In this document: positions 46,265-48,670 of the stretch, piece after piece
How positions within the stretch are numbered: the first letter of the stretch is position 1
Layout of the letters: each line of letters opens with the position of its first letter
Source of the DNA: Myxococcales bacterium
GTDB lineage: Bacteria > Myxococcota_A > Polyangia > Palsa-1104
Direction: 5' to 3'
Assembly (NCBI GenBank): GCA_003170275.1
Contig: PNAM01000032.1
Location: forward strand, 110,674 to 173,533
Length of the DNA: 62,860 nucleotides
The notes under the pieces: generated by a model
Told to the model about the DNA's origin: nothing
The model's input: the letters and a program-made list of their open reading frames with translations, nothing else
Databases searched by the model: none
Made by a program: the position numbers and the translations under genes

Positions 46265-46987
46265 ATGCACATCCTGTTGCTCAGCGCGTTGCTGCTCGGA
46301 AGCTCGTGCGCCAAACCGAGCGACGCCGGGATGGCTCGCGCGATGGTGGCGATCCCCGACGCGATCCTGCCGATGGGGTGTGAACCGTCTCGCGATCCGA
46401 GCTGCGCGCAGACCGAGCTGCCTCGACATGCGGTGCAGGTTCGCAGGTTCAGGATCGATCGCACCGAGGTCTCGCAGGATGCGTATCGGGCTTGCGTCGA
46501 GGCGCGATCGTGCACCAGGCCGTTCGCCGCGTTCGAGCCGCGCCAGAATCCCAATCGACCGGTGACGCAGGTGAGCTGGGACCAGGCTCGGCGGTTCTGC
46601 GGGTGGCTCGGCAAGCGCCTACCGACGGAAGCCGAGTGGGAGCTGGCAGCGCGCGGCACCGACGGCCGGATCTATCCGTGGGGAGACGATCCACCGACCT
46701 GCCAGAGAGCCCACACCAGCGATTGCGGCGCGGCGCCGGCGGAGGTCGGGCAACGTCCGGCAGGCAAGAGCCCGTTTGGCGTGCTCGACCTGGCCGGGAA
46801 CGTCGACGAGTGGGTCCAGGATCTCTACGTCGCCTACGGCGCCGGCACACCCGGCGCTCCCTCGGGGCAGCGCGTGGCGCGGGGCGGAGCCTACGACGCG
46901 TGGCACTCGCGCTCGACGGCGCGCAGTGCGCTCGACCCCGACTATCACGATGCGCTGCTGGGTTTCCGCTGCGCGGCAAACGAGTGA
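46265..46987 (+). CDS. FGE/SUMF1-fold lipoprotein
   Basis: This 240-residue protein has the lipobox LGSSC, then a formylglycine-generating-enzyme fold: AILPMGCEPSRDPSC, VRRFRIDRTEVSQDAYRAC, PVTQVSWDQARRFCGWLGKRLPTE, AEWELAARGTDGRIYPWG, SPFGVLDLAGNVDEWVQD, and the closing ALLGFRCA. I cannot place the copper-binding cysteine pair of true FGE with certainty; the fold is also used for binding, as in many surface lipoproteins. It heads the three-gene redox operon, 19 bp upstream of the thioredoxin lipoprotein. Confidence 0.87.
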   Translation: MHILLLSALLLGSSCAKPSDAGMARAMVAIPDAILPMGCEPSRDPSCAQTELPRHAVQVRRFRIDRTEVSQDAYRACVEARSCTRPFAAFEPRQNPNRPVTQVSWDQARRFCGWLGKRLPTEAEWELAARGTDGRIYPWGDDPPTCQRAHTSDCGAAPAEVGQRPAGKSPFGVLDLAGNVDEWVQDLYVAYGAGTPGAPSGQRVARGGAYDAWHSRSTARSALDPDYHDALLGFRCAANE

Positions 46988-47006: not shown

Positions 47007-47636
47007 GTGGACCGAAGACTGATGGCAGCGCTGTTGTGGTTGACGCTTGGCGCGTGTGCCGCGACGAACGCAGGGCGCGACGCACCTGTCGCGCGCGTGC
47101 CCGTCGCCGGTGATCCGAGCGATCGTTGCGTGCACGGCGTCGCCTGCGAAACGTGCGTGAAGTGCCACCCGGAGCTGGCCGCCCGGTTCAAGGCCGCCGG
47201 CGACTGGTGCCCGGAGCACGGTGTGCCCGAGTCGCAGTGCGGGATCTGCCATCCGGAGGTGGTGGTCGCGCCGCCCCGGCCGCCCCAGGGCGCTGACCTT
47301 CAGCAGCTCGTCGATGCCGGGCAGGATGTCGCGTCGCTGGAGCCGCATGCGGTCCGCGGCAAGGTGACGATCTTCGACTTCTACGCCGATTGGTGCGGCC
47401 CGTGCCGCCACGTCGACGAGCACGTGTTCGAGTTGCTGAAGCGCCGCACCGACGTCGCCTATCGCAAGCTCAACATCGTCTCGTGGGAGACGCCGCTGGC
47501 GAAGCACTACCTGGCCTCGGCGCCGAGCCTTCCGTACGTCGTGGTCTACGGAAGGGACGGCAAACCGGCGGGCAAGATGTCCGGGCTCGAGCTCGACGTG
47601 CTGGATCGCGCCATTGCGGTCGGGAGCGCTCGATGA
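47007..47636 (+). CDS. Thioredoxin-fold lipoprotein with N-terminal metal/heme-type Cys-His domain
   Basis: This 209-residue protein has the lipobox LGAC (Cys17). Residues 40-85 carry CVKCH (50-54), DWCPEHGVPESQC and CGICH (78-82). The HGVPESQC phrase recalls the N-terminal metal-binding segment of RND efflux adaptor proteins, and CxxCH could also bind heme. Residues 118-209 are a thioredoxin fold with WCGPC (129-133) and a cis-Pro in SLPYVVVYG. It is a periplasmic thiol-disulfide enzyme. GTG at 47007 has TGAGG upstream; ATG at 47022 is an alternative. Its stop overlaps the next start (ATGA), so the next protein is a likely partner. Confidence 0.86.
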   Translation: MDRRLMAALLWLTLGACAATNAGRDAPVARVPVAGDPSDRCVHGVACETCVKCHPELAARFKAAGDWCPEHGVPESQCGICHPEVVVAPPRPPQGADLQQLVDAGQDVASLEPHAVRGKVTIFDFYADWCGPCRHVDEHVFELLKRRTDVAYRKLNIVSWETPLAKHYLASAPSLPYVVVYGRDGKPAGKMSGLELDVLDRAIAVGSAR

Positions 47637-48670
47637 GGCTCGGCGTGATGGTCGCCGTGGTCGGGGTGCTGACGCTCTTGCCGGAGCGCGGCTTCGCCTG
47701 AGCGGCGTGAAGCAATCCAAACCTTCCGGTCGGAGGGTCTTCCACGAGCGGGAGCGTGCTGCCACCGCGCGGAACGTTGAACCTGTCGTTGTCGATCACC
47801 GGCACCGGCGCGCACACCGGTCACGTCGAGAGTTGCCCCGACATCAACGGCCCGGCGTGCGCGGCCAAGCCGGTGCCCGACGAGTGGCACGACCTGAACT
47901 TGTTCTTCGGCGAGCTGCGCCTGCACGCCGAGTACGGGATCACCTCGTGGCTCTCGACGGAGCTGCTGTGGTCGCTGCGCGTCGTGCACGTCGGATTCCA
48001 GCTCGAGGACGCCGTGACGCGCATGCCGATCACGCCGCCGTACGGCCCGGACCTCCACCATCGGACCGAGACGCTGGTGGGCCTCACCGATCCCTGGCTG
48101 AGCGCGCGAGCGGCGAAGGTGCTCGGCCCGTGGGCGTTCGCGTTCCGTCTCGGGCTGACGCTGCCGATCGGCTCGACGGTCCCCAACCCGTTCGAGCTGG
48201 AGCGCGAGGGCAAGCAGCACGAGCACATCCAGTTCGGCTCCGGCACCGTCGATCCGCTCGCCGGCGTCGAGCTGCACCGCGCGATCGGGCGCTTTTCCGT
48301 CGCCGGCTGGATGCTCGCGAAGGCGTCGCTGTATCAGAACGCCCAGCACTACCAGGCGGGCAGCCAGCTGCTCGCAGGGGCCAACGCGTCGAGCGATCTA
48401 TGGACCTCGCGCTGGTGGTTCATGCTCGGCGCGCTGGTCTACAACGAGCAGCCGGAGCGCTGGGATGGCGTGACCGAGACCGAAGGCAACCTGGGCCGCA
48501 CCGACGTGATGCTGGACACCGCCATCTCCGTGCGATTTCGCGGGCGATGGAGCGTCACACTGTCGGCGAGGATTCCCCTGTTCAGCCAGGCGGTCGGCGC
48601 GCAGTTGAGCTCGCCCGCCTTCGGCGAGCTCTCGATCGCACGCTCCTTCGATCTCACGCGCCGCCGGTGA
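47633..48670 (+). CDS. Candidate double-selenocysteine (UxxU) beta-barrel envelope protein
   Basis: From ATG at 47633 a perfect signal peptide is read (MRLGVMVAVV to RGFA, residues 1-22). Then follow TGA (47699), GCG GCG, TGA (47708) and, in the same frame, SNPNLPVGG and about 310 residues of beta-barrel-type strands (GTLNLSLSITGTG, LFFGELRLHAEYGITSW, FSVAGWMLAKASL) to the TGA at 48668. Reading both internal TGA as selenocysteine gives mature Sec-Ala-Ala-Sec-SNPNLP, i.e. a UxxU motif at the mature N-terminus, where a CxxC would be expected. A SECIS-like hairpin lies at 47721-47738. The usual alternative start (GTG 47756) would lack any signal peptide. Start overlaps the thioredoxin gene by 4 nt. 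Alternatives: two nonsense mutations or sequence errors. Confidence 0.68.
47721..47738 (+). promoter_or_regulatory. SECIS-like stem-loop downstream of the paired TGA codons
   Basis: ACCTTCC (47721-47727) pairs with GGAGGGT (47732-47738), one T-G wobble included, closing the loop GGTC. The loop starts 17 nt after the second TGA and 26 nt after the first, both inside the 16-37 nt window used for bacterial SECIS elements. The loop begins with G and matches the GGUC of E. coli fdhF. T at 47724 is position 17 counted from the second TGA, the place of the bulged U17. Confidence 0.6.

Follow-up and report, generated by a model that had tools for sequence, protein, structure and literature searches.

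The window analysed here, a 62,860-nt stretch of contig PNAM01000032.1 from a Myxococcales bacterium (assembly GCA_003170275.1), carries a reading frame from 47633 to 48670 that is open to its own TGA stop apart from the sequence TGA GCG GCG TGA at 47699-47710. The frame lies on the forward strand, as do all features of the window given below. Its ATG overlaps the TGA stop of an upstream thioredoxin-domain gene as ATGA (47633-47636), and a hairpin lies downstream of the TGA pair. The original prediction, made from the sequence alone, had proposed that both in-frame TGA codons are read as selenocysteine (Sec, U), and the read-through translation confirms the open frame that it described. Read in this way, the frame encodes a predicted UxxU selenoprotein of 345 amino acids plus stop (47633-48670), an assignment based on the read-through translation, the homologues and a structural model with its fold matches. 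The translation starts with MRLGVMVAVVGVLTLLPERGFA-U-A-A-U-SNPNLPVGG..., i.e. a signal-peptide-like stretch is followed by Sec23-Ala-Ala-Sec26, the residues SNPNLP and a predicted outer-membrane beta-barrel. Judging from sequence comparisons, we regard it as almost certain that the frame encodes a selenoprotein, with both TGA codons predicted to be read as Sec. This identity is carried by the exchange of Sec and Cys at both places, a covarying hairpin downstream and a complete Sec machinery in the genome.

The signal-peptide-like stretch (47633-47698) was recognised by eye and has similar stretches in relatives, in line with the signal peptide originally claimed ahead of the TGA pair. Cleavage after AFA, likewise judged by eye, would likely make Sec23 residue +1 of the mature protein. 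Lipidation of residue 23 was also considered and rejected, as by eye a lipobox is absent before this residue.

Selenocysteine and cysteine at the two TGA codons

A protein search returned at least 326 relatives. Among the 120 matches listed, most of the closer ones fall short of the query in length, and where names are shown they mostly read 'hypothetical protein', with one 'MetA-pathway of phenol degradation'. Fusions named thioredoxin were added by a profile search (120 of 219 matches listed), and among the matches listed in either search none of the names shown mentions a selenoprotein. The database entries listed (P0002-P0121, P0122-P0167) often span only the part after the TGA pair, so that they would be without a signal peptide. 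Fourteen proteins were fetched; seven are full length at the place of UAAUSNPNLP, six of them reading CAGCSNPNLP and one CAGCRNPNLP, and the other seven are without this region. A check of homologues for Cys at the TGA places, proposed along with the original prediction, hereby turned out positive (CAGC in 7 of the 14), with Sec at other loci.

Among 96 whole genomes including the window's own, 13 have a barrel match at E 1e-5 and 12 (again including its own) carry the TGA form, i.e. the same TGA pair recurs in independent genomes. Two other barrel matches in the window's own genome are weak (E 0.11 and 0.55), and the one examined, L002, is without a motif of such kind. A scan of genome contigs with a single barrel protein found zero relatives; a second scan, with alignment A1 as query and one genome per species, yielded 73 loci. 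The locus set comprises 78 loci without duplicates, 77 of which were read, L099 being cut at a contig end. Hereby, L031, L035-L040, L042 and L043 coincide with later loci and were counted once, and L052, the same place as L033, was dropped (it stood in for L033 in the thioredoxin count below).

The 77 loci comprise 61 UxxU, seven CxxU, five CxxC and four xxxC forms and no UxxC form. Position 23, encoded by the first TGA (47699-47701; predicted Sec23), is Sec or Cys in 73 of them, with Cys in the CxxU and CxxC relatives and Gln or Arg in one clade. Position 26 (second TGA, 47708-47710; predicted Sec26) is Sec or Cys in all 77, a count that the reading pattern, which required Sec or Cys there, partly predetermines. 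The HxH motif (His196, His198; 48218-48226) is conserved in the family alignment, yet was also the search pattern used to collect loci. By record names the loci belong to Myxococcota, Acidobacteriota, Planctomycetota, Poribacteria and Pseudomonadota, with a few records bearing no phylum. On a quick tree of the 77 barrels that leaves out the motif columns, the four states require nine changes, and CxxU by itself five gains or losses, four of which are forced by well-supported branches. The swap between Sec and Cys has apparently occurred several times within one protein, which offers a direct test of why Sec is used instead of Cys. Since three strains that by record title are not metagenome-assembled genomes combine CxxU forms with selB and tRNA-Sec, the family is testable in isolates. 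Myxobacterial isolates bearing CxxU are Archangium violaceum Cb vi76, Myxococcus sp. RHSTA-1-4 and Pyxidicoccus caerfyrddinensis.

The downstream hairpin and the selenocysteine machinery

The hairpin at 47721-47738 resembles a bacterial Sec insertion sequence (SECIS), as judged by folding and by family covariation at codon third positions. Its arms at 47721-47727 (ACCTTCC, 5') and 47732-47738 (GGAGGGT, 3') form 7 bp including one T-G pair and enclose the loop GGTC at 47728-47731, which lies 17 nt from the second and 26 nt from the first TGA; stem, loop and spacing are as originally described. Published rules for bacterial SECIS elements, as given in the sections of PMC13188914 considered here, are G in the first loop positions, a spacing of 16-37 nt and a minimum free energy of at most -7.5. 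With its GGTC loop, both distances and -9.3 kcal/mol, the window hairpin agrees with all of them.

At the family level, covariation at third positions was counted in those 32 of 68 Sec rows (31 distinct) in which PVG follows the motif; 16 other Sec rows (14 distinct) were counted for a displaced hairpin, and the remaining 20 of the 68 are in neither count. In two stem pairs both bases fall on third codon positions, and protein conservation therefore cannot account for their pairing. Both are paired in 31 of 31 distinct PVG-type rows, with CG, GC, TA and G-U occurring at one and CG, TA and GC at the other, and 0 of 200,000 shuffles reach this pairing. The outermost pair is kept in 16 of the 31 rows and one other pair in 24. 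A pair counter gave 89.9% paired and 22 cells with both sides changed, compared to 5.2 +/- 1.9 after shuffling, and the covariation score is 0.376 versus 0.151 +/- 0.020 for shuffled rows. For percentage paired, both-side changes and covariation alike, 0 of 500 shuffles were as high, and values are much lower when the stem is slid. The changed-pair and pair-type counts are not above shuffles, being reached in 254 and 135 of 500, respectively, and the covariation tests are inflated by kinship of the rows, several of which are near-copies.

The loop of the best hairpin is located 16-19 nt past codon 2 in all 52 Sec rows that lie outside the Planctomycetota/Poribacteria group. Within the group this holds for 5 of 16 rows, and among the Cys rows, in most of which the peptide also differs, for 0 of 9. 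For 16 rows of this group (14 distinct; L106, L108-L114 and L116-L123, the titles of L110 and L121 being without phylum) we found a displaced hairpin with an 8-bp stem and a loop that is mostly GGTCT. Its loop starts 39 nt past the second and 48 nt past the first TGA, just outside the 16-37 nt rule. Here, 93.8% are paired, and both sides are changed in 16 cells, compared to 6.6 +/- 1.7 after shuffling. One third-position pair is A-T in ten and G-C in four rows (paired in all 14, a result matched by 53 of 50,000 shuffles), the other G-C in nine, T-A in three and C-G in one (13 of 14 paired; 100 of 50,000 shuffles as good).

A search of the window's genome for the Sec machinery, likewise proposed with the original prediction, found selA (540 bits), selB (306), selD (372) and tRNA-Sec (selC; 74), all over curated cut-offs. 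In the 12 TGA-form genomes of the 96-genome set, nine have SelB over its cut-off and the other three tRNA-Sec over its cut-off; overall, SelB is found at E 1e-60 in 49 of the 96. Twenty-one further genomes were picked from the 73 loci. Each of the 13 Sec-form genomes among them has SelB (over cut-off in 12 of 13) or tRNA-Sec (12 of 13). In the five CxxC genomes SelB and tRNA-Sec exceed the cut-off only in that of L075 (both; tRNA 50.5 bits), and the three xxxC genomes are mixed, the contig of L066 also bearing a UxxU copy, L081.

Several observations weigh against a selenoprotein. Taken alone, the window hairpin is no better than synonymous-codon shuffles, 23% of 300 being as good; the SECIS evidence therefore rests at the family level. 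Across the family, hairpins below 0.05 versus synonymous shuffles occur in only 12 of 61 UxxU, 2 of 7 CxxU and 0 of 9 Cys rows, and an energy of -7.5 or lower, passed by 36 of 61 UxxU and 6 of 7 CxxU rows, is also passed by 4 of 4 xxxC and 1 of 5 CxxC rows. Three Sec-form relatives (G037, G065, G071) are without SelB at E 1e-60, though tRNA-Sec is present. Finally, the window's assembly consists of 118 contigs with an estimated contamination of 6.13%, and the sel genes stand on contigs other than the window's.

If the TGA codons were ordinary stops, the locus would hold a broken gene, or a short signal-peptide open reading frame (ORF) followed by an unrelated barrel ORF from GTG 47756. The shorter closer relatives among the matches listed, which reach no more than about 89% query coverage, would fit this view, as would the lack of significance of the window hairpin on its own. 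It would leave the barrel without a signal peptide, though, and it is at odds with the same TGA pair in 61 loci with records from five named phyla, with intact relatives carrying Cys at both places and with the 31 of 31 covarying third-position pairs. On the Cys in relatives, the spread of UxxU and the hairpin covariation we rejected ordinary stops, which we consider very improbable. A changed genetic code with TGA as ordinary sense codon would account for the open TGA within the barrel frame; against it stand the Cys in relatives, the full Sec machinery and the fact that barrel gene and partner gene both end with TGA. Rejected on the TGA stops of both genes and the machinery, it has a negligible probability. 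Sec at both TGA codons, as originally proposed, is by comparison a strongly supported prediction, given the Sec/Cys exchange, the family covariation and the sel genes.

Predicted fold, thioredoxin partner and a putative metal site

The AlphaFold2 model of the window protein has a mean predicted local distance difference test score (pLDDT) of 86 and a predicted template modelling score of 0.81. Its best Foldseek and VIA-align match is 4rl8, the COG4313 channel Pput2725, and DSSP assigns 13 strand segments, two of which are perhaps one broken strand. The model supports the barrel that had been read from the sequence and predicts a fold of the COG4313 type. The protein matches no Pfam family at E 1, and PF13557 was found in 6 of 26 alignment members at E 0.01; as PF13557 is unmatched, the window protein is not filed as a COG4313 member. 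At E 1 it also matches no NCBIfam family (and so not NF041115), three relatives likewise being without NCBIfam match, and a PDB sequence search with alignment A2 gave weak, unrelated chains only.

The partner gene at 47022-47636 encodes a likely lipoprotein with a lipobox-like LGAC, a Cys-rich VPESQC module and a thioredoxin domain (WCGPC), as judged from the ORF, a domain search and relatives. A thioredoxin hidden Markov model (HMM), built from six partner-type domains and applied to the 78 loci, detected such a domain in 51: in 31 it stands immediately upstream, and in 20 it is joined to the C-terminus of the barrel. Upstream partners contain an HMA domain in 13 of 30 cases, a VPESQC string in 10 of 30 and a lipobox-like string in 10 of 30 only. 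At least six His occur in the linker stretch of 13 of the 20 fused loci, and 2 of 26 alignment members match cupredoxin. In L035 (= L074), L041 and L043 (= L082), a single protein combines barrel, His-rich linker and thioredoxin; in L035 and L043 a cupredoxin-like domain follows at its end, and the contig of L041 ends within a possible one. The partner P0249 bears the source name CzcB family. Upstream of the window's thioredoxin gene, 46265-46987 on the same strand encodes an FGE-sulfatase-domain protein (PF03781, E 8.6e-44), where the relative L031 has another ORF.

In the xxxC clade (L061, L064, L066, L070) alignment columns show that His64 (47822-47824), His86 (47888-47890) and His143 (of the His142-His143 codons at 48056-48061) are lost together with the first Sec/Cys; 18 of the 23 conserved columns are retained in full, and Cys26 and the fused thioredoxin are likewise kept. 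This joint loss of four columns suggests that position 23 and the three His form one putative Sec/Cys-His3 metal site. Genes for CusA/CzcA, heavy-metal P-type ATPase or MerR/MerT/MerC lie near 9 of the 78 loci, two of the nine in one genome. This neighbourhood is only suggestive, since CusA-type genes are common in these genomes. Mer-type genes stand shortly before a UxxU barrel in L042 (4687-8196; MerR, MerT-HMA), L086 (5939-9479; MerR, MerC, HMA) and L080 (1480-3867; MerC and a thioredoxin-like protein).

The explanation that we consider best, and on the whole probable, is a double-Sec COG4313-like barrel whose Sec pair would serve as soft-metal ligand and redox site, attended by the upstream thioredoxin. 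The metal/redox mechanism itself is put forward as plausible. SelB and the hairpin would insert Sec at both UGA codons, and the N-terminal segment would be placed within the barrel lumen or close to it, as seen in the crystal structure of the COG4313 channel. The Sec pair would then stand at the periplasmic or luminal end of the channel, where the thioredoxin partner would keep it reduced or load it. Sec23 might bind a metal with His64, His86 and His143; the copper class would be most likely, given the cupredoxin, HMA and CusA/CopA contexts, and mercury in mer-type loci, as the three such loci L042, L080 and L086 would indicate. Sec26 could swap electrons or metal with the partner thioredoxin, and the HMA or Cys-rich module of the partner could carry metal in the periplasm. 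More tentative still is its most specific form, a Se-His3 metal channel of the outer membrane whose mature protein starts with Sec and in which an HMA-thioredoxin reduces the site or passes the metal on.

Several findings speak against such a metal and redox site. Model confidence is low over the first 40 residues (block means 44-58), and the HMM found zero thioredoxin in the 16 Planctomycetota/Poribacteria-group loci and 11 others, some of which are cut by contig ends. The joint loss of the His occurs in one clade of four rows and is a single event. The metal-gene queries were drawn from these same loci, without random control windows; CusA and P-type ATPase of L042 and L103 are partial tblastn matches only, and CusA-type genes occur in 95 of 96 genomes with 0-10 matches each. 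In addition, COG4313 channels are implicated in the uptake of hydrophobic molecules, according to the parts of PMC4493636 considered.

The UxxU pair had originally been taken as a redox motif, a reading that holds in part: the thioredoxin partner supports a redox role, and the co-lost His together with the HMA, cupredoxin and His-rich modules point to metal. In a purely redox barrel, thioredoxin would open and close a diselenide and thereby gate the channel or pass electrons over the outer membrane, with no metal involved. This would agree with the 51 of 78 loci that have thioredoxin upstream or as a fusion, with the spacing of UxxU, CxxU and CxxC, typical for redox motifs, and with the statement in the review sections considered that most uncharacterised selenoproteins are likely redox proteins (PMC13188914). 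Nevertheless we consider it unlikely, as it leaves the joint loss of three His with position 23 unexplained, as well as HMA in 13 of 30 partners, the His-rich linkers, the cupredoxin fusions and the mer-type loci, and as the HMM did not find thioredoxin in the Planctomycetota/Poribacteria group. A Sec-tipped channel that takes up a small hydrophobic or organometallic compound, which UxxU would break or trap, would suit the COG4313-like fold and the uptake role ascribed to COG4313 proteins, and organometallic Sec systems are on record (SAO; PMC13188914, in part). With PF13557 in 6 of 26 members only and not in the window protein, we regard this as improbable.

Comparison with known barrels and selenoproteins

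The original prediction knew of no described family of this kind, and this agrees with Table 1 of a 2026 catalogue (PMC13188914), in which the barrel family is not among the 119 prokaryotic selenoprotein families. A literature search over titles and abstract starts found no description of a double-Sec barrel family. In the considered parts of the deep-Sep paper (PMC12013277), a TonB receptor is included and no UxxU or barrel was found, and ExtI, in those of PMC5877670, is a Geobacter porin in a cluster with a selenoprotein and is not itself called one. The family seems hidden from annotation by the loss of signal peptide and Sec pair. If the proposed function is correct, a Sec metal site in an outer-membrane channel would occur in several phyla and would have been missed because annotation starts past the two UGA codons.

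UxxU itself is listed in Table 1 of the catalogue only for a Prx-like oxidoreductase, the metal-binding protein NF041115 and FmdB. The Prx-like thiol:disulfide oxidoreductase and the FmdB-family selenoproteins share UxxU with the window protein and are listed under PF00578 and TIGR02605, which the latter does not match. NF041115, a UxxU metal-binding (seleno)protein catalogued as 'putative mercuric reductase', likewise has UxxU in common with it. The MerT-HMA protein near the barrel of L042 resembles NF041115 and NF045683 (MerT/CopZ-type), below both cut-offs, and is not a barrel.

With the COG4313 channels (Pput2725, PDB 4rl8; PF13557 Phenol_MetA_deg) the window protein shares the predicted fold at 12% identity. 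The COG4313 paper, in the sections considered, gives no Sec motif and proposes hydrophobic substrates, whereas the window family bears UxxU. Most catalogued selenoproteins have a single Sec; the barrel family would carry two. Two outer-membrane-type families were recognised among the 119 of the table, the TonB-dependent receptor FCYXU (NF049945) and the GSU2204-family MtrB/PioB barrel (NF041027); they are listed with one Sec each (CxxU, and no motif given, respectively), compared to two predicted in the window protein, which reads as a member of a new selenoprotein family on an old fold.
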